DNA of 64,000 nt. It comes from Pristionchus mayeri. Its lineage: Eukaryota > Nematoda > Chromadorea > Rhabditida > Neodiplogasteridae. Location of the stretch: assembly GCA_036245805.1 (NCBI GenBank), contig BTRK01000007.1, positions 1,270,586 through 1,334,585 of the forward strand, given 5' to 3'. Both the position numbers and the translations under genes were made by a program. Below, piece after piece: positions 1 through 24,590 of this stretch; position 1 is the stretch's first letter, and every line of letters starts with the position of its first letter. The notes beneath the pieces are model-generated. The model made no database searches, had not been told where the DNA came from, and saw only the letters and a program-made list of their open reading frames with translations.

Positions 1-3000
1 TGATCCACCAAGGAGTCGAGAGTGAGCCTGCTCCTGAGAGAGAAGAAGTAGAGAAGGAGGACCGTGGTACCAAGGTATCGACTAAATGTTGAAATTTTGC
101 CTGAACATTCTATTTCAAGGAGCTGATCCACCAAGGAGTCGAGAGTGAGCCTGCTCCTGAGAAAGAAGAAGTAGAGAAGGAGGACCGTGGTACCAAGGTA
201 TCGACTAAATGTTGAAATTTTGCCTCAACATTCTATTTCAAGGAGCTGATCCACCAAGGAGTCGAGAGTGAGCCTGCTCATGAGAGAGAAGAAGTAGACA
301 AGGAGGACCGTGGTAGCAAGGTATCGACTAAATGTTGAAATTTTGCCTCAACATTCTATTTCAAGGAGCTGATCCACCAAGGAGTCGAGAGTGAGCCTGC
401 TCCTGAGAAAGAAGAAGTAGAGAAGGAGGACCGTTGTACCAAGGTATCGACTAAATGTTGAAATTTTGCCTCAACATTCTATTTCAAGGAGCTGATCCGC
501 CAAGGAGTCGAGAGTGAGCCTGCTCATGAGAGAGAAGAAGTAGAGAAGGAGGACCGTGGTACCAAGGTATCGACTAAATGTTGAAATTTTGCCTGAACAT
601 TCTATTTCAAGGAGCTGATCCACCAAGGAGTCGAGAGTGAGCCTGCTCCTGAGAAAGAAGAAGTAGAGAAGGAGGACCGTGGTACCAAGGTATCGACTAA
701 ATGTTGAAATTTTGCCTCAACATTCTATTTCAAGGAGCTGATCCACCAAGGAGTCGAGAGTGAGCCTGCTCCTGAGAGAGAAGAAGTAGAGAAGGAGGAC
801 CGTGGTACCAAGGTATCGACTAAATGTTGAAATTTTGCCTCAACATTCTATTTCAAGGAGCTGATCCACCAAGGAGTCGACAGTGAGCCTGCTCATGAGA
901 GAGAAGAAGTAGACAAGGAGGACCGTGGTAGCAAGGTATCGACTAAATGTTGAAATTTTGCCTCAACATTCTATTTCAAGGAGCTGATCCACCAAGGAGT
1001 CGAGAGTGAGCCTGCTCCTGAGAAAGAAGAAGTAGAGAAGGAGGACCGTGGTACCAAGGTATCGACTAAATGTTGAAATTTTGCCTCAACATTCTATTTC
1101 AAGGAGCTGATCCGCCAAGGAGTCGAGAGTGAGCCTGCTCATGAGAGAGAAGAAGTAGAGAAGGAGGACCGTGGTACCAAGGTATCGACTAAATGTTGAA
1201 ATTTTGCCTGAACATTCTATTTCAAGGAGCTGATCCACCAAGGAGTCGAGAGTGAGCCTGCTCCTGAGAAAGAAGAAGTAGAGAAGGAGGACCGTGGTAC
1301 CAAGGTATCGACTAAATGTTGAAATTTTGCCTCAACATTCTATTTCAAGGAGCTGATCCACCAAGGAGTCGAGAGTGAGCCTGCTCCTGAGAGAGAAGAA
1401 GTAGAGAAGGAGGACCGTGGTACCAAGGTATCGACTAAATGTTGAAATTTTGCCTCAACATTCTATTTCAAGGAGCTGATCCACCAAGGAGTCGACAGTG
1501 AGCCTGCTCATGAGAGAGAAGAAGTAGACAAGGAGGACCGTGGTAGCAAGGTATCGACTAAATGTTGAAATTTTGCCTCAACATTCTATTTCAAGGAGCT
1601 GATCCACCAAGGAGTCGAGAGTGAGCCTGCTCCTGAGAAAGAAGAAGTAGAGAAGGAGGACCGTTGTACCAAGGTATCGACTAAATGTTGAAATTTTGCC
1701 TCAACATTCTATTTCAAGGAGCTGATCCACCAAGGAGTCGAGAGTGAGCCTGCTCCTGAGAAAGAAGAAGTAGAGAAGGAGGACCGTTGTACCAAGGTAT
1801 CGACTAAATGTTGAAATTTTGCCTCAACATTCTATTTCAAGGAGCTGATCCGCCAAGGAGTCGAGAGTGAGCCTGCTCATGAGAGAGAAGAAGTAGAGAA
1901 GGAGGACCGTGGTACCAAGGTATCGACTAAATGTTGAAATTTTGCCTGAACATTCTATTTCAAGGAGCTGATCCACCAAGGAGTCGAGAGTGAGCCTGCT
2001 CCTGAGAAAGAAGAAGTAGAGAAGGAGGACCGTGGTACCAAGGTATCGACTAAATGTTGAAATTTTGCCTCAACATTCTATTTCAAGGAGCTGATCCACC
2101 AAGGAGTCGAGAGTGAGCCTGCTCCTGAGAGAGAAGAAGTAGAGAAGGAGGACCGTGGTACCAAGGTATCGACTAAATGTTGAAATTTTGCCTCAACATT
2201 CTATTTCAAGGAGCTGATCCACCAAGGAGTCGAAAGTGAGCCTGCTCATGAGAGAGAAGAAGTAGACAAGGAGGACCGTGGTAGCAAGGTATCGACTAAA
2301 TGTTGAAATTTTGCCTCAACATTCTATTTCAAGGAGCTGATCCACCAAGGAGTCGAGAGTGAGCCTGCTCCTGAGAAAGAAGAAGTAGAGAAGGAGGACC
2401 GTTGTACCAAGGTATCGACTAAATGTTGAAATTTTGCCTGAACATTCTATTTCAAGGAGCTGATCCACCAAGGAGTCGAGAGTGAGCCTGCTCCTGAGAA
2501 AGAAGAAGTAGAGAAGGAGGACCGTGGTACCAAGGTATCGACTAAATGTTGAAATTTTGCCTCAACATTCTATTTCAAGGAGCTGATCCACCAAGGAGTC
2601 GAGAGTGAGCCTGCTCCTGAGAGAGAAGAAGTAGAGAAGGAGGACCGTGGTACCAAGGTATCGACTAAATGTTGAAATTTTGCCTCAACATTCTATTTCA
2701 AGGAGCTGATCCGCCAAGGAGTCGAGAGTGAGCCTGCTCATGAGAGAGAAGAAGTAGAGAAGGAGGACCGTGGTACCAAGGTATCGACTAAATGTTGAAA
2801 TTTTGCCTGAACATTCTATTTCAAGGAGCTGATCCACCAAGGAGTCGAGAGTGAGCCTGCTCCTGAGAAAGAAGAAGTAGAGAAGGAGGACCGTGGTACC
2901 AAGGTATCGACTAAATGTTGAAATTTTGCCTCAACATTCTATTTCAAGGAGCTGATCCACCAAGGAGTCGAGAGTGAGCCTGCTCCTGAGAGAGAAGAAG

Positions 3001-6000
3001 TAGAGAAGGAGGACCGTGGTACCAAGGTATCGACTAAATGTTGAAATTTTGCCTCAACATTCTATTTCAAGGAGCTGATCCACCAAGGAGTCGAAAGTGA
3101 GCCTGCTCATGAGAGAGAAGAAGTAGACAAGGAGGACCGTGGTAGCAAGGTATCGACTAAATGTTGAAATTTTGCCTCAACATTCTATTTCAAGGAGCTG
3201 ATCCACCAAGGAGTCGAGAGTGAGCCTGCTCCTGAGAAAGAAGAAGTAGAGAAGGAGGACCGTTGTACCAAGGTATCGACTAAATGTTGAAATTTTGCCT
3301 GAACATTCTATTTCAAGGAGCTGATCCACCAAGGAGTCGAGAGTGAGCCTGCTCCTGAGAAAGAAGAAGTAGAGAAGGAGGACCGTGGTACCAAGGTATC
3401 GACTAAATGTTGAAATTTTGCCTCAACATTCTATTTCAAGGAGCTGATCCACCAAGGAGTCGAGAGTGAGCCTGCTCCTGAGAGAGAAGAAGTAGAGAAG
3501 GAGGACCGTGGTACCAAGGTATCGACTAAATGTTGAAATTTTGCCTCAACATTCTATTTCAAGGAGCTGATCCACCAAGGAGTCGACAGTGAGCCTGCTC
3601 ATGAGAGAGAAGAAGTAGACAAGGAGGACCGTGGTAGCAAGGTATCGACTAAATGTTGAAATTTTGCCTCAACATTCTATTTCAAGGAGCTGATCCACCA
3701 AGGAGTCGAGAGTGAGCCTGCTCCTGAGAAAGAAGAAGTAGAGAAGGAGGACCGTTGTACCAAGGTATCGACTAAATGTTGAAATTTTGCCTCAACATTC
3801 TATTTCAAGGAGCTGATCCACCAAGGAGTCGAGAGTGAGCCTGCTCCTGAGAAAGAAGAAGTAGAGAAGGAGGACCGTTGTACCAAGGTATCGACTAAAT
3901 GTTGAAATTTTGCCTCAACATTCTATTTCAAGGAGCTGATCCGCCAAGGAGTCGAGAGTGAGCCTGCTCATGAGAGAGAAGAAGTAGAGAAGGAGGACCG
4001 TGGTACCAAGGTATCGACTAAATGTTGAAATTTTGCCTGAACATTCTATTTCAAGGAGCTGATCCACCAAGGAGTCGAGAGTGAGCCTGCTCCTGAGAAA
4101 GAAGAAGTAGAGAAGGAGGACCGTGGTACCAAGGTATCGACTAAATGTTGAAATTTTGCCTCAACATTCTATTTCAAGGAGCTGATCCACCAAGGAGTCG
4201 AGAGTGAGCCTGCTCCTGAGAGAGAAGAAGTAGAGAAGGAGGACCGTGGTACCAAGGTATCGACTAAATGTTGAAATTTTGCCTCAACATTCTATTTCAA
4301 GGAGCTGATCCACCAAGGAGTCGAAAGTGAGCCTGCTCATGAGAGAGAAGAAGTAGACAAGGAGGACCGTGGTACCAAGGTATCGACTAAATGTTGAAAT
4401 TTTGCCTCAACATTCTATTTCAAGGAGCTGATCCACCAAGGAGTCGAGAGTGAGCCTGCTCCTGAGAGAGAAGAAGTAGAGAAGGAGGACCGTGGTACCA
4501 AGGTATCGACTAAATGTTGAAATTTTGCCTCAACATTCTATTTCAAGGAGCTGATCCACCAAGGAGTCGACAGTGAGCCTGCTCATGAGAGAGAAGAAGT
4601 AGACAAGGAGGACCGTGGTAGCAAGGTATCGACTAAATGTTGAAATTTTGCCTCAACATTCTATTTCAAGGAGCTGATCCACCAAGGAGTCGAGAGTGAG
4701 CCTGCTCCTGAGAAAGAAGAAGTAGAGAAGGAGGACCGTTGTACCAAGGTATCGACTAAATGTTGAAATTTTGCCTCAACATTCTATTTCAAGGAGCTGA
4801 TCCACCAAGGAGTCGAGAGTGAGCCTGCTCCTGAGAAAGAAGAAGTAGAGAAGGAGGACCGTTGTACCAAGGTATCGACTAAATGTTGAAATTTTGCCTC
4901 AACATTCTATTTCAAGGAGCTGATCCGCCAAGGAGTCGAGAGTGAGCCTGCTCATGAGAGAGAAGAAGTAGAGAAGGAGGACCGTGGTACCAAGGTATCG
5001 ACTAAATGTTGAAATTTTGCCTGAACATTCTATTTCAAGGAGCTGATCCACCAAGGAGTCGAGAGTGAGCCTGCTCCTGAGAAAGAAGAAGTAGAGAAGG
5101 AGGACCGTGGTACCAAGGTATCGACTAAATGTTGAAATTTTGCCTCAACATTCTATTTCAAGGAGCTGATCCACCAAGGAGTCGAGAGTGAGCCTGCTCC
5201 TGAGAGAGAAGAAGTAGAGAAGGAGGACCGTGGTACCAAGGTATCGACTAAATGTTGAAATTTTGCCTCAACATTCTATTTCAAGGAGCTGATCCACCAA
5301 GGAGTCGAAAGTGAGCCTGCTCATGAGAGAGAAGAAGTAGACAAGGAGGACCGTGGTAGCAAGGTATCGACTAAATGTTGAAATTTTGCCTCAACATTCT
5401 ATTTCAAGGAGCTGATCCACCAAGGAGTCGAGAGTGAGCCTGCTCCTGAGAAAGAAGAAGTAGAGAAGGAGGACCGTTGTACCAAGGTATCGACTAAATG
5501 TTGAAATTTTGCCTGAACATTCTATTTCAAGGAGCTGATCCACCAAGGAGTCGAGAGTGAGCCTGCTCCTGAGAAAGAAGAAGTAGAGAAGGAGGACCGT
5601 GGTACCAAGGTATCGACTAAATGTTGAAATTTTGCCTCAACATTCTATTTCAAGGAGCTGATCCACCAAGGAGTCGAGAGTGAGCCTGCTCCTGAGAGAG
5701 AAGAAGTAGAGAAGGAGGACCGTGGTACCAAGGTATCGACTAAATGTTGAAATTTTGCCTCAACATTCTATTTCAAGGAGCTGATCCGCCAAGGAGTCGA
5801 GAGTGAGCCTGCTCCTGAGAAAGAAGAAGTAGAGAAGGAGGACCGTTGTACCAAGGTATCGACTAAATGTTGAAATTTTGCCTCAACATTCTATTTCAAG
5901 GAGCTGATCCGCCAAGGAGTCGAGAGTGAGCCTGCTCATGAGAGAGAAGAAGTAGAGAAGGAGGACCGTGGTACCAAGGTATCGACTAAATGTTGAAATT

Positions 6001-9000
6001 TTGCCTGAACATTCTATTTCAAGGAGCTGATCCACCAAGGAGTCGAGAGTGAGCCTGCTCCTGAGAAAGAAGAAGTAGAGAAGGAGGACCGTGGTACCAA
6101 GGTATCGACTAAATGTTGAAATTTTGCCTCAACATTCTATTTCAAGGAGCTGATCCACCAAGGAGTCGAGAGTGAGCCTGCTCCTGAGAGAGAAGAAGTA
6201 GAGAAGGAGGACCGTGGTACCAAGGTATCGACTAAATGTTGAAATTTTGCCTCAACATTCTATTTCAAGGAGCTGATCCACCAAGGAGTCGAAAGTGAGC
6301 CTGCTCATGAGAGAGAAGAAGTAGACAAGGAGGACCGTGGTAGCAAGGTATCGACTAAATGTTGAAATTTTGCCTCAACATTCTATTTCAAGGAGCTGAT
6401 CCACCAAGGAGTCGAGAGTGAGCCTGCTCCTGAGAAAGAAGAAGTAGAGAAGGAGGACCGTTGTACCAAGGTATCGACTAAATGTTGAAATTTTGCCTGA
6501 ACATTCTATTTCAAGGAGCTGATCCACCAAGGAGTCGAGAGTGAGCCTGCTCCTGAGAAAGAAGAAGTAGAGAAGGAGGACCGTGGTACCAAGGTATCGA
6601 CTAAATGTTGAAATTTTGCCTCAACATTCTATTTCAAGGAGCTGATCCACCAAGGAGTCGAGAGTGAGCCTGCTCCTGAGAGAGAAGAAGTAGAGAAGGA
6701 GGACCGTGGTACCAAGGTATCGACTAAATGTTGAAATTTTGCCTCAACATTCTATTTCAAGGAGCTGATCCGCCAAGGAGTCGAGAGTGAGCCTGCTCAT
6801 GAGAGAGAAGAAGTAGAGAAGGAGGACCGTGGTACCAAGGTATCGACTAAATGTTGAAATTTTGCCTGAACATTCTATTTCAAGGAGCTGATCCACCAAG
6901 GAGTCGAGAGTGAGCCTGCTCCTGAGAAAGAAGAAGTAGAGAAGGAGGACCGTGGTACCAAGGTATCGACTAAATGTTGAAATTTTGCCTCAACATTCTA
7001 TTTCAAGGAGCTGATCCACCAAGGAGTCGAGAGTGAGCCTGCTCCTGAGAGAGAAGAAGTAGAGAAGGAGGACCGTGGTACCAAGGTATCGACTAAATGT
7101 TGAAATTTTGCCTCAACATTCTATTTCAAGGAGCTGATCCACCAAGGAGTCGAAAGTGAGCCTGCTCATGAGAGAGAAGAAGTAGACAAGGAGGACCGTG
7201 GTAGCAAGGTATCGACTAAATGTTGAAATTTTGCCTCAACATTCTATTTCAAGGAGCTGATCCACCAAGGAGTCGAGAGTGAGCCTGCTCCTGAGAAAGA
7301 AGAAGTAGAGAAGGAGGACCGTTGTACCAAGGTATCGACTAAATGTTGAAATTTTGCCTGAACATTCTATTTCAAGGAGCTGATCCACCAAGGAGTCGAG
7401 AGTGAGCCTGCTCCTGAGAAAGAAGAAGTAGAGAAGGAGGACCGTGGTACCAAGGTATCGACTAAATGTTGAAATTTTGCCTCAACATTCTATTTCAAGG
7501 AGCTGATCCACCAAGGAGTCGAGAGTGAGCCTGCTCCTGAGAGAGAAGAAGTAGAGAAGGAGGACCGTGGTACCAAGGTATCGACTAAATGTTGAAATTT
7601 TGCCTCAACATTCTATTTCAAGGAGCTGATCCACCAAGGAGTCGACAGTGAGCCTGCTCATGAGAGAGAAGAAGTAGACAAGGAGGACCGTGGTAGCAAG
7701 GTATCGACTAAATGTTGAAATTTTGCCTCAACATTCTATTTCAAGGAGCTGATCCACCAAGGAGTCGAGAGTGAGCCTGCTCCTGAGAAAGAAGAAGTAG
7801 AGAAGGAGGACCGTTGTACCAAGGTATCGACTAAATGTTGAAATTTTGCCTCAACATTCTATTTCAAGGAGCTGATCCGCCAAGGAGTCGAGAGTGAGCC
7901 TGCTCATGAGAGAGAAGAAGTAGAGAAGGAGGACCGTGGCACCAAGGTATCGACTAAATGTTGAAATTTTGACTGAACATTCTATTTCAAGGAGCTGATC
8001 CACCAAGGAGTCGACAGTGAGCCTGCTCATGAGAGAGAAGAAGTAGAGAAGGAGGACCGTGGTACCAAGGTATCGACTAAATGTTGAAATTTTGCCTGAA
8101 CATTCTATTTCAAGGAGCTGATCCACCAAGGAGTCGAGAGTGAGCCTGCTCCTGAGAGAGAAGAAGTAGAGAAGGAGGACCGTGGTACCAAGGTATCGAC
8201 TAAATGTTGAAATTTTGCCTCAACATTCTATTTCAAGGAGCTGATCCACCAAGGAGTCGAGAGTGAGCCTGCTCCTGAGAGAGAAGAAGTAGAGAAGGAG
8301 GACCGTTGTACCAAGGTATCGACTAAATGTTGAAATTTTGCCTCAACATTCTATTTCAAGGAGCTGATCCGCCAAGGAGTCGAGAGTGAGCCTGCTCATG
8401 AGAGAGAAGAAGTAGAGAAGGAGGACCGTGGTACCAAGGTATCGACTAAATGTTGAAATTTTGCCTGAACATTCTATTTCAAGGAGCTGATCCACCAAGG
8501 AGTCGAGAGTGAGCCTGCTCCTGAGAAAGAAGAAGTAGAGAAGGAGGACCGTTGTACCAAGGTATCGACTAAATGTTGAAATTTTGCCTCAACATTCTAT
8601 TTCAAGGAGCTGATCCGCCAAGGAGTCGAGAGTGAGCCTGCTCATGAGAGAGAAGAAGTAGAGAAGGAGGACCGTGGTACCAAGGTATCGACTAAATGTT
8701 GAAATTTTGCCTGAACATTCTATTTCAAGGAGCTGATCCACCAAGGAGTCGAGAGTGAGCCTGCTCCTGAGAAAGAAGAAGTAGAGAAGGAGGACCGTGG
8801 TACCAAGGTATCGACTAAATGTTGAAATTTTGCCTCAACATTCTATTTCAAGGAGCTGATCCACCAAGGAGTCGAGAGTGAGCCTGCTCCTGAGAGAGAA
8901 GAAGTAGAGAAGGAGGACCGTGGTACCAAGGTATCGACTAAATGTTGAAATTTTGCCTCAACATTCTATTTCAAGGAGCTGATCCACCAAGGAGTCGAGA

Positions 9001-12000
9001 GTGAGCCTGCTCCTGAGAGAGAAGAAGTAGAGAAGGAGGACCGTTGTACCAAGGTATCGACTAAATGTTGAAATTTTGCCTCAACATTCTATTTCAAGGA
9101 GCTGATCCGCCAAGGAGTCGAGAGTGAGCCTGCTCATGAGAGAGAAGAAGTAGAGAAGGAGGACCGTGGTACCAAGGTATCGACTAAATGTTGAAATTTT
9201 GCCTCAACATTCTATTTCAAGGAGCTGATCCACCAAGGAGTCGAGAGTGAACCTGCTCCTGAGAAAGAAGAAGTAGAGAAGGAGGACCGTGGTACCAAGG
9301 TATCGACTAAATGTTGAAATTTTGCCTCAACATTCTATTTCAAGGAGCTGATCCACCAAGGAGTCGAGAGTGAGCCTGCTCCTGAGAGAGAAGAAGTAGA
9401 GAAGGAGGACCGTTGTACCAAGGTATCGACTAAATGTTGAAATTTTGCCTCAACATTCTATTTCAAGGAGCTGATCCGCCAAGGAGTCGAGAGTGAGCCT
9501 GCTCATGAGAGAGAAGAAGTAGAGAAGGAGGACCGTGGTACCAAGGTATCGACTAAATGTTGAAATTTTGCCTGAACATTCTATTTCAAGGAGCTGATCC
9601 ACCAAGGAGTCGAGAGTGAGCCTGCTCCTGAGAAAGAAGAAGTAGAGAAGGAGGACCGTGGTACCAAGGTATCGACTAAATGTTGAAATTTTGCCTCAAC
9701 ATTCTATTTCAAGGAGCTGATCCACCAAGGAGTCGAGAGTGAGCCTGCTCCTGAGAGAGAAGAAGTAGAGAAGGAGGACCGTGGTACCAAGGTATCGACT
9801 AAATGTTGAAATTTTGCCTCAACATTCTATTTCAAGGAGCTGATCCACCAAGGAGTCGAGAGTGAGCCTGCTCCTGAGAGAGAAGAAGTAGAGAAGGAGG
9901 ACCGTTGTACCAAGGTATCGACTAAATGTTGAAATTTTGCCTCAACATTCTATTTCAAGGAGCTGATCCGCCAAGGAGTCGAGAGTGAGCCTGCTCATGA
10001 GAGAGAAGAAGTAGAGAAGGAGGACCGTGGTACCAAGGTATCGACTAAATGTTGAAATTTTGCCTCAACATTCTATTTCAAGGAGCTGATCCACCAAGGA
10101 GTCGAGAGTGAACCTGCTCCTGAGAAAGAAGAAGTAGAGAAGGAGGACCGTGGTACCAAGGTATCGACTAAATGTTGAAATTTTGCCTCAACATTCTATT
10201 TCAAGGAGCTGATCCACCAAGGAGTCGAGAGTGAGCCTGCTCCTGAGAAAGAAGAAGTAGAGAAGGAGGACCGTGGTACCAAGGTATCGACTAAATGTTG
10301 AAATTTTGCCTCAACATTCTATTTCAAGGAGCTGATCCGCCAAGGAGTCGAGAGTGAGCCTGCTCATGAGAGAGAAGAAGTAGAGAAGGAGGACCGTGGC
10401 ACCAAGGTATCGACTAAATGTTGAAATTTTGACTGAACATTCTATTTCAAGGAGCTGATCCACCAAGGAGTCGACAGTGAGCCTGCTCATGAGAGAGAAG
10501 AAGTAGAGAAGGAGGACCGTGGTACCAAGGTATCGACTAAATTTTGAAATTTTGCCTGAACATTCTATTTCAAGGAGCTGATCCACCAAGGAGTCGAGAG
10601 TGAACCTGCTCCTGAGAGAGAAGAAGTAGAGAAGGAGGACCGTGGTACCAAGGTATCGACTAAATGTTGAAATTTTGCCTCAACATTCTATTTCAAGGAG
10701 CTGATCCACCAAGGAGTCGAGAGTGAGCCTGCTCCTGAGAAAGAAGAAGTAGAGAAGGAGGACCGTGGTGCCAAGGTATCGACTAAATGTTGAAATTTTG
10801 CCTGAACATTCTATTTCAAGGAGCTGATCCACCAAGGAGTCGAGAGTGAACCTGCTCCTGAGAGAGAAGAAGTAGAGAAGGAGGACCGTGGTACCAAGGT
10901 ATCGACTAAATGTTGAAATTTTGCCTCAACATTCTATTTCAAGGAGCTGATCCACCAAGGAGTCGAGAGTGAGCCTGCTCCTGAGAGAGAAGAAGTAGAG
11001 AAGGAGGACCGTGGTACCAAGGTATCGACTAAATGTTGAAATTTTGCCTCAACATTCTATTTCAAGGAGCTGATCCACCAAGGAGTCGACAGTGAGCCTG
11101 CTCATGAGAGAGAAGAAGTAGAGAAGGAGGACCGTGGTACCAAGGTATCGACTAAATGTTGAAATTTTGCCTGAACATTCTATTTCAAGGAGCTGATCCA
11201 CCAAGGAGTCGAGAGTGAGCCTGCTCATGAGAGAGAAGAAGTAGAGAAGGAGGACCGTGGTACCAAGGTATCGACTAAATGTTGAAATTTTGCCTCAACA
11301 TTCTATTTCAAGGAGCTGATCCACCAAGGAGTCGAGAGTGAGCCTGCTCCTGAGAAAGAAGAAGTAGAGAAGGAGGACCGTGGTACCAAGGTATCGACTA
11401 AATGTTGAAATTTTGCCTCAACATTCTATTTCAAGGAGCTGATCCACCAAGGAGTCGAGAGTAAGCCTGCTCCTGAGAGAGAAGAAGTAGAGAAGGAGGA
11501 CCGTGGTACCAAGGTATCGACTAAATGTTGAAATTTTGCCTCAACATTCTATTTCAAGGAGCTGATCCACCAAGGAGTCGACAGTGAGCCTGCTCATGAG
11601 AGAGAAGAAGTAGAGAAGGAGGACCGTGGTACCAAGGTATCGACTAAATGTTGAAATTTTGCCTGAACATTCTATTTCAAGGAGCTGATCCACCAAGGAG
11701 TCGAGAGTGAGCCTGCTCATGAGAGAGAAGAAGTAGAGAAGGAGGACCGTGGTACCAAGGTATCGACTAAATGTTGAAATTTTGCCTCAACATTCTATTT
11801 CAAGGAGCTGATCCACCAAGGAGTCGACAGTGAGCCTGCTCATGAGAGAGAAGAAGTAGAGAAGGAGGACCGTGGTACCAAGGTATCGACTAAATGTTGA
11901 AATTTTGCCTGAACATTCTATTTCAAGGAGCTGATCCACCAAGGAGTCGAGAGTGAGCCTGCTCATGAGAGAGAAGAAGTAGAGAAGGAGGACCGTGGTA

Positions 12001-15000
12001 CCAAGGTATCGACTAAATGTTGAAATTTTGCCTCAACATTCTATTTCAAGGAGCTGATCCACCAAGGAGTCGAGAGTGAGCCTGCTCCTGAGAAAGAAGA
12101 AGTAGAGAAGGAGGACCGTGGTGCCAAGGTATCGACTAAATGTTGAAATTTTGCCTGAACATTCTATTTCAAGGAGCTGATCCACCAAGGAGTCGAGAGT
12201 GAACCTGCTCCTGAGAGAGAAGAAGTAGAGAAGGAGGACCGTGGTACCAAGGTATCGACTAAATGTTGAAATTTTGCCTCAACATTCTATTTCAAGGAGC
12301 TGATCCACCAAGGAGTCGAGAGTGAGCCTGCTCCTGAGAGAGAAGAAGTAGAGAAGGAGGACCGTGGTACCAAGGTATCGACTAAATGTTGAAATTTTGC
12401 CTCAACATTCTATTTCAAGGAGCTGATCCACCAAGGAGTCGACAGTGAGCCTGCTCATGAGAGAGAAGAAGTAGAGAAGGAGGACCGTGGTACCAAGGTA
12501 TCGACTAAATGTTGAAATTTTGCCTGAACATTCTATTTCAAGGAGCTGATCCACCAAGGAGTCGAGAGTGAGCCTGCTCATGAGAGAGAAGAAGTAGAGA
12601 AGGAGGACCGTGGTACCAAGGTATCGACTAAATGTTGAAATTTTGCCTCAACATTCTATTTCAAGGAGCTGATCCACCAAGGAGTCGAGAGTGAGCCTGC
12701 TCCTGAGAAAGAAGAAGTAGAGAAGGAGGACCGTGGTACCAAGGTATCGACTAAATGTTGAAATTTTGCCTCAACATTCTATTTCAAGGAGCTGATCCAC
12801 CAAGGAGTCGAGAGTGAGCCTGCTCCTGAGAGAGAAGAAGTAGAGAAGGAGGACCGTGGTACCAAGGTATCGACTAAATGTTGAAATTTTGCCTCAACAT
12901 TCTATTTCAAGGAGCTGATCCACCAAGGAGTCGACAGTGAGCCTGCTCATGAGAGAGAAGAAGTAGAGAAGGAGGACCGTGGTACCAAGGTATCGACTAA
13001 ATGTTGAAATTTTGCCTGAACATTCTATTTCAAGGAGCTGATCCACCAAGGAGTCGAGAGTGAGCCTGCTCATGAGAGAGAAGAAGTAGAGAAGGAGGAC
13101 CGTGGTACCAAGGTATCGACTAAATGTTGAAATTTTGCCTGAACATTCTATTTCAAGGAGCTGATCCACCAAGGAGTCGAGAGTGAGCCTGCTCATGAGA
13201 GAGAAGAAGTAGAGAAGGAGGACCGTGGTACCAAGGTATCGACTAAATGTTGAAATTTTGCCTCAACATTCTATTTCAAGGAGCTGATCCACCAAGGAGT
13301 CGAGAGTGAGCCTGCTCATGAGAGAGAAGAAGTAGAGAAGGAGGACCGTGGTACCAAGGTATCGACTAAATGTTGAAATTTTGCCTCAACATTCTATTTC
13401 AAGGAGCTGATCCACCAAGGAGTCGAGAGTGAGCCTGCTCATGAGAGAGAAGAAGTAGAGAAGGAGGACCGTGGCACCAAGGTATCGACTAAATGTTGAA
13501 ATTTTGCCTCAACATTCTATTTCAAGGAGCTGATCCACCAAGGAGTCGAGAGTGAGCCTGCTCATGAGAGAGAAGAAGTAGAGAAGGAGGACCGTGGTAC
13601 CAAGGTATCGACTAAATGTTGAAATTTTGCCTCAACATTCTATTTCAAGGAGCTGATCCACCAAGGAGTCGAGAGTGAGCCTGCTCCTGAGAAAGAAGAA
13701 GTAGAGAAGGAGGACCGTGGTACCAAGGTATCGACTAAATGTTGAAATTTTGCCAGAACATTCTATTTCAAGGAGCTGATCCACCAAGGAGTCGAGAGTG
13801 AGCCTGCTCATGAGAGAGAAGAAGTAGAGAAGGAGGACCGTGGTACCAAGGTATCGACTAAATGTTGAAATTTTGCCTCAACATTCTATTTCAAGGAGCT
13901 GATCCACCAAGGAGTCGACAGTGAGCCTGCTCATGAGAGAGAAGAAGTAGAGAAGGAGGACCGTGGTACCAAGGTATCGACTAAATGTTGAAATTTTGCC
14001 TGAACATTCTATTTCAAGGAGCTGATCCACCAAGGAGTCGAGAGTGAGCCTGCTCATGAGAGAGAAGAAGTAGAGAAGGAGGACCGTGGTACCAAGGTAT
14101 CGACTAAATGTTGAAATTTTGCCTCAACATTCTATTTCAAGGAGCTGATCCACCAAGGAGTCGAGAGTGAGCCTGCTCCTGAGAAAGAAGAAGTAGAGAA
14201 GGAGGACCGTGGTACCAAGGTATCGACTAAATGTTGAAATTTTGCCTCAACATTCTATTTCAAGGAGCTGATCCACCAAGGAGTCGAGAGTGAGCCTGCT
14301 CCTGAGAGAGAAGAAGTAGAGAAGGAGGACCGTGGTACCAAGGTATCGACTAAATGTTGAAATTTTGCCTCAACATTCTATTTCAAGGAGCTGATCCACC
14401 AAGGAGTCGACAGTGAGCCTGCTCATGAGAGAGAAGAAGTAGAGAAGGAGGACCGTGGTACCAAGGTATCGACTAAATGTTGAAATTTTGCCTGAACATT
14501 CTATTTCAAGGAGCTGATCCACCAAGGAGTCGAGAGTGAGCCTGCTCATGAGAGAGAAGAAGTAGAGAAGGAGGACCGTGGTACCAAGGTATCGACTAAA
14601 TGTTGAAATTTTGCCTCAACATTCTATTTCAAGGAGCTGATCCACCAAGGAGTCGAGAGTGAGCCTGCTCCTGAGAAAGAAGAAGTAGAGAAGGAGGACC
14701 GTGGTACCAAGGTATCGACTAAATGTTGAAATTTTGCCTCAACATTCTATTTCAAGGAGCTGATCCACCAAGGAGTCGAGAGTGAGCCTGCTCATGAGAG
14801 AGAAGAAGTAGAGAAGGAGGACCGTGGCACCAAGGTATCGACTACATGTTGAAATTTTGCCTGAACATTCTATTTCAAGGAGCTGATCCACCAAGGAGTC
14901 GAGAGTGAACCTGCTCCTGAGAGAGAAGAAGTAGAGAAGGAGGACCGTGGTACCAAGGTATCGACTAAATGTTGAAATTTTGCCTCAACATTCTATTTCA

Positions 15001-15694
15001 AGGAGCTGATCCACCAAGGAGTCGACAGTGAGCCTGCTCATGAGAGAGAAGAAGTAGAGAAGGAGGACCGTGGTACCAAGGTATCGACTAAATGTTGAAA
15101 TTTTGCCTGAACATTCTATTTCAAGGAGCTGATCCACCAAGGAGTCGACAGTGAGCCTGCTCATGAGAGAGAAGAAGTAGAGAAGGAGGACCGTGGTACC
15201 AAGGTATCGACTAAATGTTGAAATTTGCCTCAACATTCTATTTCAAGGAGCTGATCCACCAAGGAGTCGAGAGTGAGCCTGCTCCTGAGAAAGAAGAAGT
15301 AGAGAAGGAGGACCGTGGTACCAAGGTATCGAATAAATGTTGAAATTTTGCCTCAACATTCTATTTCAAGGAGCTGATCCACCAAGGAGTGGAGAGTGAG
15401 CCTGCTCCTGAGAGAGAAGAAGTAGAGAAGGAGGACCGTGGTACCAAGGTATCGACTAAAGGTTGAAATTTTGCCTCAACATTCTATTTCAAGGAGTTGA
15501 TCCACCAAGGAGTCGAGAGTGAGCCTGCTCTTGAGATTGAAGGAGTAGAGAAGGAGGACCGTGGTACCAAGGTATCGACTAAATGTTGAAATTTTGCCTC
15601 AACATTCTATTTCAAGGAGCTGATCCACCAAGGAGTCGAGAGTGAGCCTGCTCCTGAGAGAGAAGAAGTAGAGAAGGAGGACCGTGGTACCAAG
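1..15694 (+). repeat. 123-bp tandem array, 128 units, exon/intron cassette
   Basis: Each unit is 123 bp. Unit starts (GAG of GAGCTGATCC) fall at 120, 243, and so on to 15126, then at 15248, 15371, 15494 and 15617. The spacing is exactly 123 throughout, apart from one T deletion near 15225. The first unit lacks 3 bases at the window edge, so the array probably continues leftward. Every unit splits into a 78-bp part (GAGCTGATCC...GGTACCAAG) and a 45-bp part that starts GTATCGACT and ends CTATTTCAAG. Variants include CAC/CGC, CCT/CAT, AGA/AAA, GAG/GAC, GGT/TGT and ACC/AGC in the first part, and CCTG/CCTC in the second. The last units are the most diverged, as is usual at an array edge. Some units group into irregular blocks of 5-10. 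No spacers are present, so it is not CRISPR. Confidence 0.98.
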
Positions 15695-16721
15695 GTATCG
15701 ACTATCATCCCAACTCCAAACGACACCATCGAGGGAAGGGACGGCGAAAAGAGTTCTGAGGAAAAGCCTCTGCAGGTACTGAGTCACCGTAAATCCAATT
15801 CTTACGCATACTAGTTTTTATTAATCATTTCTTTTTAAACGATATTTTCAGAAACAAGACAACTCCTCATCGTCGAACTCATCTCTTCAACTCGACCTTC
15901 CCTCAATTGAATCATCGTTTTCAGGGATATCTATCTCTACTCACGACGACGGTGGGAGGGAAGGTCCTCATTTTATATCTGGAAAGCTTACTTTTGCTGG
16001 CATCAATTGTCATTCGATAAGGGCCACGGACGAAAACTGGGAAAAGAGAAATAGGATATCCGATTTCATGGAATCTTCAGACTTATCCATAGTAGGACTT
16101 ACAGAGACGTGGATTAAGCCAGGTGAAAAGATCACATTGCTGGTTGACGACTATATTGAGTATAGCCAAGACAGGCCCATGGGGGAACTGAAGGGAGGCG
16201 GAGGCGTAGCTCTGCTTATTTCAAATAAACTCACTTCCTCACTACTGCATTCTCATTCAGAGAAGGATTTTTGTCAAGTTATAACTTGTCGTGTTCAGAT
16301 AACCAAAAATTATTCCGTAATAGTTTCTTGTATCTATCGTTCAAACAACCCTATGTCAAAATTGAATCATTTTGAAGATACTCTTCAATATATAGCAAAT
16401 TTCATCAGTACAGAAACTGATGAAGTTATATTATTTGGCGATTTCAATTGCCCTGAATATGCAAGTAGATATCTCACACATGCAGTTAAAAAAAGAAAAT
16501 CTTTAAATATTAATGATGCTCTTGTTAATTTTTCCGTAAAAATGAGACTGACGCAATTCGTGAGAGAGCCTACTCGCAAAACCGGTAAGATGTCTGATCT
16601 AGTATTTTCTAAGAATCAAAATATTATTTATAATTGTTTTGCACAGAAGAAATTATCAGGTGATTTTGAGTTAGATCATTTCATAGTTCGTTTTGAAATA
16701 TCATTTACAGTTCTTTATTAG
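1..16721 (+). CDS. Predicted giant repeat protein with C-terminal LINE-type endonuclease domain (5' partial)
   Basis: Spliced model. Each 78-bp array exon encodes 26 acidic residues (ELIHQGVESEP, then variable residues, then EEVEKEDRGTK), separated by 45-nt phase-0 introns (AAG|GTATCG ... TTTCAAG|GAG). The last exon (15617-15775) reads through the former donor as VSTIIPTPND and ends CAG|GTACTG. A 76-nt intron (15776-15851, ending TTTTCAG) joins, in frame, an open exon at 15852-16721. That exon encodes an exo_endo_phos (EEP) domain as in CR1/Jockey-like LINEs: GIN (Asn 16005), TETW (Glu 16104), a Gly run before VALLIS, GDFNCP (16437), SDLVF (16593) and DHF (16674). The Ser usual before DH is Leu. 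No reverse transcriptase follows the TAG/TAA stop region. The gene start is outside the window. Function is unknown; the EEP fold is known for nicking DNA or hydrolysing phosphoesters. The EEP and its splice link are well supported; expression of all 128 exons is inferred. Alternatively, a minisatellite may sit beside a LINE relic. Confidence 0.62.
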
Positions 16722-16784
16722 GCTATTACCCAGATGATGCAACTTTCCATTTCACATCCTTAATGTTTTTTATTTATTTTTTTA

Positions 16785-16790
16785 AATAAA
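16785..16790 (+). terminator. Polyadenylation signal of the repeat/EEP gene
   Basis: AATAAA lies 64 bp after the EEP stop codon in a T-rich stretch. It fits a nematode 3' end. The rest of 16722-16910 shows no gene. Confidence 0.5.
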
Positions 16791-17809
16791 ATGTTTCTAC
16801 CAAAACTGTTTCTGCCCCTTCTCTAACCGAATTCAGAGCAACCGGCAGTGTCAACTGCATAACATTCGAGGTACGCATCGTTTTAGCCCTTTTTCGATAT
16901 GGAATCATAGATATGAGAGACTTTTTGAGCCAGTGAACATATTTGTGAAGACCCCTGGCAAAGTGCGAAAAATCGAAATCCTCCTAAATGCGCATACATG
17001 TAGTACTCGGTGAGTGTAGCTCAAACATGGCCTATTTAGTGTTCTAGATTGCTCGCTGATGAACGAAATATACTTTAGTCCGAAAATTGAAATTTTCGAA
17101 TTTTGCCATTTCGAATCCGATTTAAATGGCTGATCTTTTAAAAAATCAGTAATATTTCATGGATTATATATGCCAAATTCCAGAATGATTGGGCATCAAC
17201 TCGTGAAGAAACAGCGAAAATATTTTTTTAATTTTTTAAATTAATTCAGACGGGTGGGTAGCAACCATTTTTATTTCGCTATTATCCAGAGTGGCATTCT
17301 TGCTATTCACATAATAAATTAAAAAGAAATAAAAAAATAGGTTTTTGAGAAATCGTCCAAAATGTGTAAAAAGTCACTTCTCGATCAGCCCGAAACTACC
17401 GTACTCGAGTGATGAGAGAGTGTGCAGAATGAAGAGACAAATACATGAATTACGTTGATGTGGAGGGGATACGGTAGCAGGAGTACTGTACGTATGTCTA
17501 AATTCATTCCAGCTTGTCCGGCATCTATTGTGCCACTACGGCTAGATTGGCACCATTTGGTGATTTTATAATATCAGTGTTGCAGTAGTACAGACTACGG
17601 TAGCCGACAAATGCTAGCTGACCCAGTCTGGATGGTGTGACTCATGTAACCATAGGAGGATCCAACATCATCCTAAACCTCACACAAATTCGTGTAATCA
17701 TCTCTTCATTCTGCACACTCTCTCAACACTCGACCGGCTCGAGTACGGTAGTTTCAGGATGACCGAGAAGTGAATTTTTACACATTTTGGACGATTTCTC
17801 AAAAACCTA

Positions 17810-19050
17810 TTAGGGTGTCCGGAAAGTTCGTTCATGCCTTTGTAAAAACTCAGTTTGTGATCGAATTTCGCAATCACGCAATGTTATTTGTCAACAAAGT
17901 ATTGCATCATCCTGACGCTAAATGGTGAGAGGATTGAATCAATCGCTTAGTTTCTACATCGATTTTCGTGATGGAGTCTCACCTTTACCTCCGCGCAGTC
18001 TTGCTACATTATCACCGCCTTGGCCAGTCGGTGAGACAGGCCCATTCAGCCCTTGCCCAATCTGAAGGTGACGATGCCCCCTCCCTTCGTTTCTGCCAGA
18101 AGTGGTTCTCTCGCTTCAAAAACGGAGACTATAGTCTCGAAGATCATCCCCGTTCTGGACGCCCTCCGACCCTCGATCAGTCTCTTGTCCTCAGCACTCT
18201 GAAGAGGAAGCCCAAAGCCAGTGTGCGCGATTTGAAGAGAGAGACTGGCACTCCTAAATCGACGGTGTCCGATATCCTTCATCGAGTGGGAAAGAAGCCC
18301 AAGCTCCCACAAGTGGTTCCCCATGATCTCTCTCCGGCGCAACTGAAAAACCGTGTCGAGATCTGTCATGAATTGCTCAATCGCAGATCAAATCTTGGAT
18401 GGGTTAATTCAATTGTCGCCGCAGATGAGAAGTGGATCGCCTACGATAACCCTGAGAGGAAACTACAGTGGGTCGATGCGGATAAGAAGCCCAAGCCAGT
18501 TCCGAAGAAGGAAGAGCATGGAAAGAAGGAACTCCTCTGCTTCTACTTCTCCGTGCTCGGTCCGATCTACTAGGAGATCCTGTCCCCTGGCACCAACATC
18601 ACTGCCGACCTATTCTCCAACCAACTGGAAGAAGTCTCCCATAGAACCCCTCCCAGTCTCGTGAGCGAGGGCAAAATCCTTCTTTTGATGGACAATGCTC
18701 GCCCTCATCGCGCGAAATTGACTCAGAAGAAAATGGACGAGCTGGATATCGAGAGGGTTCCCCACCCACCGTATTCTCCGGACCTCTCTCCTTGTGACTT
18801 CCACTGTTTCCGCTCTCTCTCAGACTTCTGCAAGGGGAAGAACTTCAAAAATCGAGATCAAGTTGTGAGGGCTTTCGTGGAATGGATGATCTCGAGGACT
18901 CCCGATTTCTGGGAGAGAGGAATCGCTACTCTGCCCGATCGCTGGAAGGAAGTGAGGGGAAACATGGGAGCATACATTGATCACTGAGAATTGTAAAGTA
19001 TTGAATAAAAAATAAAAACAAAAAATGAACGAACTTTCCGGACAACCTAA
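17810..19050 (+). mobile_element. mariner transposon (left copy)
   Basis: 1,241 bp, bounded by TA duplications (17808-17809 and 19051-19052). The terminal repeats are about 26 bp, TTAGG(G/T)TGTCCGGAAAG at both ends with one mismatch. It is inserted in the right inverted arm of FB1; rejoining the flanks restores the FB1 arm. It carries one transposase reading frame broken by a stop codon. Confidence 0.95.
17971..18987 (+). pseudogene. mariner transposase with one in-frame stop
   Basis: 338 residues would be encoded, close to the usual size of about 345. The sequence shows the mariner linker-like VVPHDLS (residues 115-121) and a D,D34D triad: D152 in ADEKW, D241 in MDNARPH and D276 in SPCD, with exactly 34 residues between the last two. 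YSPDLSPCD is the family signature. The N-terminal half contains the helix-turn-helix regions. TAG at 18571-18573 replaces codon 201, where a Tyr would be expected after GPIY. The frame is otherwise continuous, so the element is probably inactive as an autonomous unit but only one substitution from an open frame. ATG 17971 is used rather than the GTG three bases before it. Confidence 0.95.
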
Positions 19051-19468
19051 TATTTTTTAAATTTCTTTTTAATTTATTATATGAATAGCAAGCATGCCAC
19101 TCTAGATAATAGCGAAATAAAAATGGTTGCTACCCACCCATCTGAATTAATTAAAAAATTTCAAAACAATATTTTCGCTGTTTCTTCACGAGTTGATGCC
19201 CAATCATTCTGGAATTTGGCACATATAATCTATGAAATATTATTGATTTTTTAAAACATCAGCCATTTAAATCGGATTCGAAATGGCAAAATTCGAAAAT
19301 TTCAATTTTCGGACTAAAGTATATTTCGTTCATCAGCGAGCAATCTAGAACACTAAATAGGTCTGAGCTACACTCACCGAGTACTACATGTATGCGCATT
19401 TAGGAGGATTTCGTTTTTTCGCACTTTGCCAAGCATATGTTCACTGAGTCAAAAAGTCTCTCATATAA

Positions 19469-20780
19469 CAGAGGTCTTCTAGAGGTCGCAGGTGGCATTT
19501 GACAAACTGTTTAAAGTGCTTCAATCTGAATGCCCCCTTGGAGGTTGATGTGCCTGGGGCATAGTAACTTTCAGTTAAGTCGGTGGGGCCGTAAATTCAA
19601 AACTGCCTAAAATCCGGCTCTGGAAATTTCGAAAATTCAAAAAAATCATATATTCCTTCAAAGTTACGTAAAAAAGTCGATCAAAAAAGCAATATGACCG
19701 CCTCATTGAGTAGAATAATTTCCATGTTGACGATTAATCTGTAGAAAAACAATGAAATGCCGTCATCTACAAAAAAAATTTTTAGGGGTCGAAAAAATAC
19801 ATAAAAATGCCCTAAAAAATTATCCCTTTTACCTGTGAGATTATTTCAGATTCGAATTCTACGTCCTTTTTCACCCCGGGGAAAGTAGGTCTCGTAAAAA
19901 TTGCGAGCACACTTTTTTTTTGCTTTTTTGCTATTTACGTGCCGGATCTCGTGTTTTTTTGAGACATGTTCATGATATATGTGATTGTAGATACTATTTG
20001 CTGCCTCCAATTGCCTCCAAATTTGGCACAGATGTCTTACTGGAGCATATACACGTGACCAATTTCAAAATATGTAAAATTACAAAATTTTTGAAATTTC
20101 GATTTTTTCGGTCGAAATGGTCGAAAAAAAATTTCAAAAATTTTGCAATTTTGCATATTTTGAATTTTGACACATGTGTATAGTTCAGTATGACTTCTGG
20201 ACCACATTTGGAGGCAATTGGAGGCCGCAAACAGTATCTACAATCAAAAATATCATGAGCATGTCTCAAAAAACACGATACGCTTTTTTGCTTTTTTGCA
20301 CGTAAACAGCAAAAAGGCAAAAAAAGTGTGCTCGCAATTTTTACGAGACCTACTTTCCCCGGGGTGAAAAAGGACGTAGAATTCGAATCTGAAATAATCT
20401 CACAGGTAAAAGGGATAATTTTTTAGGGCATTTTTATGTATTTTTTCGACCCCTACAACAATCTTTTTGTAGATTACGGTATTTCATTGTTTTTCTACAG
20501 ATTTATCGTCAACATCGAAATTATTCTACTCAATGAGGCGGTCATATTGCTTTTTTGATCGACTTTTTTTACGTAACTTTGAAGGAATATATGATTTTTT
20601 GAATTTTCGAAATTTCCAGAGCCGGATTTTAGGCAGTTTTGAATTTATGGCCCCACCGACTTAATGAAAGTTACTATGCCCCAGGCACATCAACCACCAG
20701 AAGGGCATTCAGATTGAAGCACTTTGAACAGTTTGCCAAAGGGGGGTCTCGATTTCATGCAATCTCTCAGAAGACCTCTG
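19469..20780. mobile_element. Foldback element FB2 (left copy)
   Basis: An almost complete hairpin of 1,312 bp. The left arm from 19469 (CAGAGGTCTTCT) pairs with the right arm ending at 20780 (AGAAGACCTCTG), and the arms meet near 20115 with little loop. The outermost 60-70 bp of the arms are diverged. It abuts FB1 with two bases between them. Short ORFs inside it are palindrome by-products. Confidence 0.88.
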
Positions 20781-22073
20781 ATAAGGGGGGTTGGTTACAC
20801 CGATTGGCAATTACAAACTCTTTCAACTCGTAAGCAACAGGGTTCAGCTGTTGCAAGCGTGTTGAACTAGCTCAAATTGTTTCATGTGGAAAACAAAAAA
20901 GTTCAACTGTTGCTAATGCAACAGTTGAATTCTGTACAACAGTTGCAAAAAGGTGTTCTGGTTGAAAGCTGTTTTTTCCTGAACATGTTTGTATTGTACT
21001 TGCTAACCAATGTACCCTACCCCTCTTATATACATAGCATTAGTCTATCTATTTAATTTCATATCGATTTCGAACAAATAGCATCAATAATTGATCGATT
21101 TCAGGCTCGCATGCTTCAACTACGCTTCCGCAACCTCTACGTGCAGTCTTGCAGTCTTCAGTTGGCCTCTTCCATATACCCACGTGGAACACCCCCATCA
21201 ACCCTCTCCAAATTCTTTAACAATAATTAAATTCCCCCTCCCCCTCTCCGTCCACCGCTTATCCCGAGTAACTTTCCGCTTTCTAGTCTGCCTAATACAG
21301 AGTAATCTACTCTCAATAGTTGCACATTCGCTTTCAACGTGCCGTCATCGTGGCTGTCTCAGCTCCCCCCATCTTGAAGCAGACCTGATAAGATCATGCG
21401 TCTTGAAGCTGGCGATAGGGAACTGTTTGCATTATAGACTTCGAGATTCGGTATTGGGCGCTTTATTCTTCATTCTTTCTCGTGATAGAATGGTGAATGG
21501 AGAGAGCATTGCCGGAATTTCGATGTCTACTCGCTTTGCCTTCAAGCTCGCCGCTGTTTCTGATGCAGGGGCGAAGGCTGTGGGGAGCTGACACAGTCAC
21601 GTGATCAGCTGAGAGGTGAGATGATGCGCTAAAGGGAACAAGCTACTCTTATTTTTATTGTGGAAAGTTACTCCAATTTCATGCATTCAGTCACTTATCT
21701 CCATTAGAAATACCCCTCTAAGATTTCCAAAATATTGATGCCCTTCTGATTACACTAATTTCTGTCAGATCATCCTTTACTCCTCCGTATATTGTTTATC
21801 TACGTAACCATGTCTGATATATTTTAAAATCTCTTTATTCATATCTTAAACTCAATACCTGTTCGATTTGTGTGGATAAAATTGAGTGGTGAAACAATAG
21901 CTAGAAATACAGTCAGAAAGGAAAGTCCAAACTGTATCTACATTCCATGATCCCGGTGAGACTATTAATGTACCGTGCAATGCATCAACAAGCTTAGCTA
22001 ATCTGGAAATCGTCTTTATCACCACCAGTATCACAGTTACCCTCACTCCTTCTCTCCTCTCTCTCTCTTTTCT
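20781..22073. other. Intergenic region without a supported gene
   Basis: Holds a perfect 12-bp hairpin (see the next entry) and an AT-rich stretch. The 166-codon open frame at 21091-21591 has no recognisable domain and Ser/Leu-rich, pyrimidine-driven content, so I do not call it. Confidence 0.6.
20902..20929. other. Perfect hairpin, 12-bp stem and 4-nt loop
   Basis: TTCAACTGTTGC, loop TAAT, then GCAACAGTTGAA. A further CAACAGTTGC follows at once, so the CAACTGTTG core occurs three times. The right-arm mirror is at 43689-43716. Confidence 0.8.
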
Positions 22074-24590
22074 CTAGTAGAGGGAGAGATGCCTGAGTGG
22101 TCCGTGGTAGCTCTGGCCGATGAATTCCCCAATGATCGGCAATCGATCCGATCCGAAGTAGTTCTCAGTCGCCGACCCATCCATCCGAGTCACCGAGATC
22201 CACGGCATACCGAACGCCTCAAAACAATGAAATGATGCCGGAACAAATATGTTTCACGAATCTCATAGGACACAAATGTTTCTTTCTCTAGGATAGTTAG
22301 CTGGCTAGACGTGTATTAGCACTAAGATATCGCAACTCTATGGCATAAGATCAAAGATCACTCTAAGAATAGCCCTCTACCAGTTCTGATACTCACTCAC
22401 AGACAGATCAAAGTTCAAGAATCAAATATAAAGATCAAAGATCACTCACTCCCAGTTCCTGGACCTCCTTGGTGTTCCTTCTCAGCTCCTCCTTCACGTC
22501 ATCCTTCTTCATCTCCTCCAGCATCTCCTTCACGTTCGTCATCTGAGACGCCTTGAGCACCTGAAGAAGATGATCTTTGATCCATGATCTCTAGTCTTCA
22601 ATTTTAGCAATTTTCCTAATCAGCTATGCACGCACATAAATGCTTCGGAACAGTGAGAAAAGAGATGAGAATGTTGCAAATTCAGCGTAGCAAGAGAGAA
22701 AAGAAACCCAAAGCACCTCAAAGTGATCTTTCATCTCAACTTTAGTATCCTAAGGAGCTATGCACGCTCATGCACGTGTTCAGGGAAGATAAAGACGAGA
22801 AGATGTAAAAGATGCAGAAGAAGGAATCGAACCTTCTTGAGATCCTCCTCGCTCTTCACCAGCAGATTCTCGATCCAGAAGCGGGAGAAGAGCTGGCGAG
22901 AGACCGTCTCCGCCTGGAAAAGCTCCGCCCCTTTTCAGACTCCGCCCCTTTCCCAATCCCCCGCCCATTTTCCAAACTCCGCCCATTTCCAAGCTCCGCC
23001 CATGCCCCTCGGCCTGCCCTTTTCACTCGATACCTTCTCCGGCTCGAGCCTCTGCGCGGCGATGATCAGGCGACAGGCGTCGATCGTGCTGTTGCCCATC
23101 ACGTGCTCGGAGAAGTTCTGAATTGTCAGGGTCCGCACATTATCAAGCCCCCCCTTTCTGGCCCCGCCCATTTTCAAGCCCCGCCCACTCTCACCTTGGG
23201 CACGTTCATCGGGACGCCGAAGTGGCGCGAGATCATCTCGATCTCCTTGGCCATGTACGTCGCCTGCGAGGGATCAAAGATAAAATTAGAGAAATAAGAA
23301 ATCATCATGTTTTGCCTCCGTTTCTACACATCCCTGAACAGGGTGAACACATGCCGTTTTAGATGGAGAAACAGTGAAGTGTAGATCAAAAATTAAAATA
23401 AAGATCAAATATGAGAGATCAAAGACCAACCTTGGCCTCGCAGCTCTTCACGGGTGGCTTGTTGCCGACATCCCTGCAATGAGCACTCTTGAATTCGGGT
23501 GATAACTCGGTTAGACAGCGAGGGCTACGTGCAAACGTGTAGAAAATACATGAGAGAAATCAAAGATCAACCTAAACTCAGGGAGAATGAAAGATGTGAA
23601 GCTTACTTGAACAGTCCGCCGAGGCAGATGGGCTTGAGGACGACGTCGATCGGCCACACGACACGGTAGCGGAGGAGGGACTGCAGGGTTCAAAGATCAG
23701 GGATACAGCAACCTGATATGTATGCTAGTACTGTAGTAGTACTGTAGTCGGAACTGTAGTAATCGTGCAATGATACAGACAGCAAGCCCAGCTGTGGACA
23801 CCACTATGCACCCACTTTCGGCCTACTGGTTTGATTCTTTCAGCATTTAGTGTTGCAACAGAGCACTAAGGGTGTGGACGAGGTCAAAAAGGAATGGCCC
23901 CTCTAGTTTGTGAGTGATTTCGAACTATGCTGATATCCCGGTGCTAGTCATCTTCCTCTCAACATGCGAATCACGTGCTCAAGAGCATGCTATTACTCGA
24001 TAAGCGATTTATAAATTATGCAAAACTTTGCGTGAATATACTAATGAACGCACCATTTATTGTTTACAATTGCGCTTCGAAAGGTGTTTGAAGGAAGGAC
24101 AAGCGATTTTTTGAGCACGTGAATGCCACGCTTTCCGCTTTCCAGAATGGTAACTAGGTCATATTCTCGTTATCAGGAGAGTCAACGACTTGAGATCACG
24201 GTCATCACTCATAGGGACAACGTGGGGCCACAATCATAGCTCATAAGTGTCAAATCGCTCGTGGAATTTTCTAATGCAAGGAGCTGTTTCGCAGTGCGCA
24301 ATTAGGCCTCGGAAACTGGAGAAACGGGGCTTTCCCATGCGCACGAAAAGAGCGAAGCAACGAAACAGGAACCCATTCAATCACTTTCCCTTGCTTTCTG
24401 ATGCAGAAACATGCAGGCATATAAACCAAAGGCTGAATACGGAATCTACCTATTCTATGTGAGCAAGAAACATGTATGCACGTGTTTCCCACAGCAAGAT
24501 TGATCTTTGATCTTCGCTCACCTCGAATCCGATGAAGGAGTAGGGCGAGATGATGTCGTAGTACAGCTTGACGGTGTGGCAGCGAGTCAT
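22074..24590 (-). CDS. GST kappa (GSTK-B), left palindrome copy
   Basis: Mirror of the gene at 40028-42544; positions convert as 64618 minus x, and I see no differences in the coding exons I compared. Eight exons give 224 residues: start MTRCHTVKLYYDIISPYS, GNKPP at 51-55, FGMPW at 179-183 and FGSDR at 198-202. As in its twin, the intron before the last exon ends in the unusual GAG acceptor, and two introns are packed with GGGCGGAG-type boxes. Its 3' end (CTA at 22074) lies 1.3 kb from FB2. Head-to-tail with GSTK-A, about 2.2 kb apart. Confidence 0.93.

Follow-up and report, generated by a model that had tools for sequence, protein, structure and literature searches.

The exon-intron array and its junction with an endonuclease exon

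We analyzed a window of 64,000 nucleotides from the genome of Pristionchus mayeri (C7:1270586-1334585), whose right end is also the end of contig C7. The assembly that we searched comprises 290.8 Mb in 73 contigs; C2 is of chromosome size and C7 is an unplaced contig. Tandem Repeats Finder reports a single array in the window (positions 1-15704, period 123, 127.7 copies, 97% matches). The consensus unit is indeed what the initial annotation described: a 78-bp open segment, ELIHQGVESEPAPEREEVEKEDRGTK, and then 45 bp bounded by GT and AG. The main features, in window coordinates, are:

1-15704, plus strand: 3' end of the exon-intron minisatellite of 123-bp units, with about 128 of its roughly 915 units; the array continues upstream to C7:1173697
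15617-15775, plus strand: final repeat exon, whose frame stays open beyond the repeat donor as VSTIIPTPNDTIEGRDGEKSSEEKPLQ
15776-15851, plus strand: 76-nt phase-0 intron, GTACTG..TTTTCAG, with 0/76 differences from the copy on C2
15852-16721, plus strand: EEP (LINE-type endonuclease) exon, 289 codons plus stop, open throughout
16725-20996, no strand assigned: flank that aligns with the C2 copy as several colinear blocks and is 98.3% identical to it over 2,472 aligned positions from 16725
17069-31463, plus strand: left arm of a 14.4-kb inverted duplication
33155-47543, minus strand: right arm of the same duplication (99.93% identity between the arms)

As had also been described, the last unit (15617-15775) runs in frame through the 76-nt intron into the open EEP exon. 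The repeat donor, GTATCGACT, is still present at 15695 within the last repeat exon, and splicing from 15694 would also keep the frame, because 15695-15775 is 81 nt, a multiple of 3. In a genome search in which both of two candidates were scored, the stretch 15705-15851 matched only at C7 and at C2:15087073-15087213. In all six frames, the consensus unit contains at least one stop, so no long unspliced reading frame is expected; the longest open stretch inside the window's array is 122 amino acids, on the minus strand.

The EEP exon matches Exo_endo_phos (PF03372, E = 4e-11) and Exo_endo_phos_2 (PF14529, "Endonuclease-reverse transcriptase", E = 1e-6), both above Pfam's curated cut-offs. Among the 135 of 689 candidate protein matches in the genome that were scored, two are close (100% and 82% identity) and the next best reach about 39% identity over the domain (42% over parts), several of them on open reading frames of 780-992 codons. 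From their length and the name of PF14529, we infer that these long frames are LINE ORF2. The matches bear out the earlier identification of a LINE-type (APE-type) endonuclease and, since two copies are close and the rest are about 39% identical, suggest that the EEP exons are an old, low-copy offshoot of it. There is no reverse transcriptase in the same open reading frame, which ends at 16721. Among same-strand frames of at least 110 amino acids from 16721 to 31 kb, only one exceeds 200 amino acids; it is a mariner transposase, and none is an intact frame of reverse-transcriptase size. A sequence search of PDB gave no match up to E = 0.1, and tblastn against plasmids gave none at E = 1e-5, as expected. 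An AlphaFold model from a two-sequence alignment had a mean pLDDT of 30 and was set aside.

A compact relative on C2

The only close relative of the C7 EEP exon at the DNA level is at C2:15086215-15087072 (both of two candidates scored in the genome search). This is the last exon of a compact predicted gene of 1.6 kb on the minus strand of C2, near 15.087 Mb (C2:15086215-15087813), with one open frame and a predicted product of 447 amino acids (calculated pI 5.0). Its parts are:

Exons, minus strand: ATG exon of 33 codons; three repeat exons of 26 codons each; repeat-plus-linker exon of 51 codons; EEP exon of 285 codons plus stop
Introns, minus strand: 45, 45, 44, 45 and 76 nt, all in phase 0

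The gene's only repeat of odd length is odd in its intron part. The linker exon differs by 6 nt between the C2 and C7 copies, and the frame is kept. Because two distinctive introns (one lacking a T, the next carrying GAATAAATG) occur in the same order in the compact gene and at the end of the C7 array, the 3' ends of both arrays look homologous. Just downstream of the compact EEP exon lie three tandem arrays (120-bp, 39-bp and GA-rich; C2:15081975-15086078) that are absent from the C7 copy.

Divergence between the two endonuclease exons

Across 283 aligned codons, the two EEP exons show 60.5 non-synonymous and 4.5 synonymous differences (pN = 0.091, pS = 0.025; Fisher p = 0.0013 with counts rounded to 60 and 4), an excess that comes from a single, unpolarized pair with few synonymous differences. 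The exons also differ far more than their surroundings do: there are 65 differences in 849 sites of the exon and 21 substitutions in 2,472 aligned positions of the flank (2,460 as the denominator; p = 1e-22), or nine times the flank's divergence. The adjoining 76-nt intron is identical in the two copies. Since the rapid change is concentrated at amino-acid positions, the excess is best explained by positive selection, and gene conversion of the neighboring parts may add to the contrast between exon and flank. The locus is at most a candidate for a domesticated transposon gene, which would be low in copy number, intact, immobile and under selection; what we observed are two close copies, both open, and an excess of non-synonymous change.

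Alternatively, the endonuclease exons might be decayed LINE remnants that differ for neutral or mutational reasons, such as clustered multi-base mutations. We consider this unlikely, though less so than the other alternatives discussed below. The homology is to LINEs, and 11 of the 53 codons that differ between the copies have more than one change, as clustered mutation would produce. However, the excess is also seen among codons with a single change (40 non-synonymous and 2 synonymous, p = 0.003) and among isolated single-change codons (21 and 1, p = 0.035). Neither copy contains a stop, and the divergence is nine times the flank's.

The full array evolves as a satellite

The window holds about one seventh of the array on C7, which extends from a 500-N gap to window position 15704 (C7:1173697-1286289; 112.6 kb, about 915 units). 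Its 5' end is hidden by the assembly gap. Among 904 intervals between 905 anchors, 887 were 123 bp, 10 were 246 bp (an anchor was lost by substitution) and 7 were off-length. Six of these seven units are changed in the exon part, in every case with a shift of frame: two by +1 (the same change), three by -1 (of which two are identical) and one by -23, or four distinct events. The seventh is changed in the intron part. Given the lengths of the two parts, 63% of indels are expected to fall in exon parts, and the observed split agrees with this (binomial p = 0.43 for n = 7, or 0.66 for the 5 distinct events). Assembly error might account for the one-base indels, but less readily for the one of 23 bases.

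In-frame stops occur in 7 of the 907 full-length units. A splice-site base is changed in 10 units (the donor in 1, the acceptor in 9), so that GT is kept in 906/907 and AG in 898/907. The initial annotation, which was made from the window, had reported that one T in an intron was the only indel and that exon parts contained no stop or indel. Both observations hold for the window, where the sole off-length unit lacks a T in its intron part and no unit is listed with a stop or a changed splice site. Neither extends to the whole array, given the six exon frameshifts and seven stop units upstream. Because the window cuts the array, clean exon parts are not confirmed as an array-wide property: all 13 frame defects in the 112.6 kb lie upstream of the window, and with only 1.8 expected in the window by length, the clean sample is compatible with chance.

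We also compared substitution alleles across the 907 full-length units, leaving out the 7 off-length units, the partial first unit and the last unit. We saw 24 intron, 17 synonymous, 47 non-synonymous and 3 stop alleles, and a model with one rate per mutation type predicts 30.2, 13.2, 44.2 and 3.4, respectively (Fisher p = 0.29 for non-synonymous plus stop versus synonymous alleles). There are 0.86 alleles per site in the exon part and 0.53 in the intron part, and the four GT/AG positions hold two splice-site alleles, close to what the intron rate predicts. As these classes fit the neutral expectation, the exon part is not conserved relative to the intron part, and its change fits neutrality; the alleles are few (91), homogenized and not independent, so weak constraint could escape notice.

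The 907 units comprise 130 distinct sequences. Exact internal duplications reach 2,652 bp (8,487 bp apart) and 2,090 bp, which argues for block-wise amplification. We looked for a higher-order repeat and found no clear period (the best lag was 7, with 2.83 differences versus 3.27 for random pairs). The array is thus head-to-tail, homogenized and unconstrained, with block duplications, as in a satellite or minisatellite. Its exon parts are no freer of frameshifts and stops than its intron parts, which is not the pattern of a coding VNTR. The array evolves as a satellite, is real in this assembly, and is seven times longer than the window shows.

The other end of the array and the structure of contig C7

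Among the best 38 of 205 candidate matches to the ATG exon, those of full length fall at two places, C2:15087715 (100%) and C2:14904738-14904867 (99%). The first is in the compact gene. Among the matches listed, array units follow the second down C2 to 14872.5 kb, with none between 14883.7 and 14900.0 kb. The C2 array was read at 14867000-14873500, and these 6.5 kb are array throughout (52 units). A +T frameshift in one unit recurs in two units of the C7 array, in its first part; the remaining 51 units, all of full length, are free of stops and splice changes. Between the far end of C7 and C2:14.809-14.812 Mb, identity is 99.7%. The ATG exon at 14.905 Mb is probably the 5' end of the C7 array. 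If so, this exon and the array that follows it would form, together with the array and EEP exon on C7, a single gene copy split by the assembly, and its units might number 1,200 in total.

The 500-N gap (C7:1173197-1173696) lies immediately upstream of the array's start on C7. On the other side of the gap, C7 matches C1:36.78 Mb (C1:36783075-36789759) at about 100%, and this stretch is present twice on C1. On C7, it contains what we take, from its exons, to be an elongation-factor-like gene. With C1-like sequence on one side and C2-like sequence on the other, C7 appears to join unrelated pieces at the gap. We also considered whether C7 is simply an allele of the C2 locus at 15.087 Mb. C7:1120586-1173196 has no match of at least 150 bp to C2:15077216-15107215. 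Because this part of C7 is unmatched there and is C1-like, and because C2 carries both ATG exons, we prefer two loci to two alleles.

The two arms of the 14.4-kb inverted duplication are separated by a center of 1.7 kb. A 1-kb probe from the left arm matches C7 twice (once per arm) and C2 once (99%), which suggests a single arm on C2. The duplication may be either a real palindrome or a fold-back artifact of assembly. A second fold-back (window 49074-50510 and 50853-52292; 1.44 kb, 99.8%) is where the sequence turns round relative to C2:14.809 Mb.

Could the length of the array, or the palindrome, be an artifact of this unplaced contig? The junction of C1:36.78 Mb-like and C2-like sequence across the 500-N gap would fit, as would a near-perfect 14.4-kb palindrome with a second fold-back near 50850. 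On the other hand, looping through a short array during assembly would not invent 130 distinct sequences among 907 units, and further array units are present on C2. An artifact therefore seems improbable.

Several other repeats lie nearby. A relic of a mariner (Mos1-like) transposase with one in-frame stop (18571-18573) is at 17938-18987, and again in the inverted arm at 45625-46674. Tandem blocks of about 540 bp and a 5-kb repeat unit occupy 52486-55120 and 54642-63030. A probe that starts at window position 47850 matches C2:14816953-14853533 eight times, at intervals of about 5 kb. In the genome as a whole, the SL1 spliced-leader sequence has 465 exact copies and the reversed control has 0, as befits a nematode.

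Which copies might be translated

At the level of sequence, the reading of the unit as a 78-bp exon and a 45-bp intron is well supported in the compact relative. This copy looks functional, and it is presumably spliced and expressed. A skeptic could argue that the compact locus is not a gene either, just satellite that by chance reads open beside an endonuclease relic. In nematodes, the 3' splice site is typically CAG, and CAAG is weaker; the repeat introns end in CAAG. Also, there are few such loci. But across five introns, the phase is the same from the ATG exon through every repeat exon to an open endonuclease exon of 285 codons; both endonuclease exons have stayed open despite 53 differing codons; and the 6-nt length difference in the linker exon preserves the frame. 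We think it improbable that all of this is chance.

For the long array, the initial annotation predicted a protein of about 3,300 residues in 26-residue repeats, which would become about 24,000 residues over the whole array, and it regarded equal numbers of frameshifts and stops in exon parts as evidence against such a product. The scan of exon and intron indels over the full array, which it had proposed, placed six of seven in exon parts and one in an intron. As exon-part frameshifts and stops occur at about the neutral rate, the giant product is unsupported by the annotation's own standard. It is very unlikely that splicing of the array as read yields a huge acidic protein of repeats, in one length or several, that ends in the endonuclease: the consensus repeat exon is 78 nt and in phase 0, GT and AG are nearly always kept, the EEP exon at the end is open and about 173 final units are free of frame defects, but there are 13 frame defects in the 112.6 kb, the two alleles at GT/AG positions are about what the intron rate of 0.53 per site predicts, and 0 of the 907 full-length exon parts carry an in-frame Met, so translation could not start within the array. 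Because repeat exons are in phase 0, skipping the damaged ones would keep the frame; the resulting length-variable acidic protein of thousands of residues, with a fast-evolving, LINE-derived endonuclease at its C terminus, is likewise very unlikely. A product shorter than the full array is possible from the expanded copy, given that the last 173 or so units on C7 (after C7:1264918) and 51 of 52 units in the C2 piece are without frame defects. The EASTR paper (PMC10632439) reports that introns of under 100 bp have been annotated spuriously in tandem repeats. An array like this one could be turned into a false giant gene by a gene finder or an RNA aligner.

Proposed history

We propose that a small spliced gene was duplicated, and that the exon-intron unit of one copy was amplified as a satellite while the compact copy was kept; this is the account that we consider probable. 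The ancestral gene would have had an ATG exon, repeated 78-bp exons (each encoding an acidic 26-residue unit and each with a 45-bp mini-intron) and a C-terminal endonuclease exon, which would have been captured long ago from a LINE element. The two copies would both be on C2: the compact one at 15.087 Mb, and the expanded one with its ATG exon at 14.905 Mb and its 3' part assembled as the end of C7. In the expanded copy, unequal exchange or block duplication would have multiplied the unit to at least about 915 copies. This copy probably no longer makes a full-length protein.

Comparison with known systems and implications

In the human coding VNTR of LPA, exons and introns lie within each kringle IV-2 unit. 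The unit described here is 123 bp long and has one mini-exon and one mini-intron; it is present in about 915 or more copies, and unlike the LPA array, it shows no coding constraint. In the NBPF genes, each Olduvai unit carries exons, but the units are much longer and fewer, and the product is translated; the array in P. mayeri carries frameshifts and stops instead. Tandem units within a gene and expansion in one lineage are shared features, as the primate NBPF/Olduvai (DUF1220) repeats are outlined in PMC9584774 (units of about 1.6 kb). The endonuclease resembles the apurinic-type endonuclease of LINEs (non-LTR retrotransposons), with PF03372 and PF14529 both above cut-off, but unlike in a LINE, only the endonuclease is present, behind an acidic repeat N terminus and in two close copies. 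The array is similar to nematode satellite DNAs, such as those of Meloidogyne (PMC3694981), in that its tandem units are homogenized, blocks of them are duplicated and their change fits neutrality. It differs from these in that its monomer is a recognizable exon plus intron of a gene that is predicted to be intact in the same genome. Among the open-access titles and abstract openings that our literature searches listed, there was no description of a nematode exon-intron satellite or of a gene that combines such repeats with an EEP domain.

In P. mayeri, then, a complete exon and its intron appear to have become the monomer of a satellite, and the compact gene, predicted to be intact, in the same genome offers a before-and-after comparison. 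The captured LINE endonuclease, whose copies differ nine times more than the flank and nearly always by amino-acid replacement, has the pattern that is expected in genetic conflict. Experimental attention would be best directed at the compact gene and its rapidly changing endonuclease.
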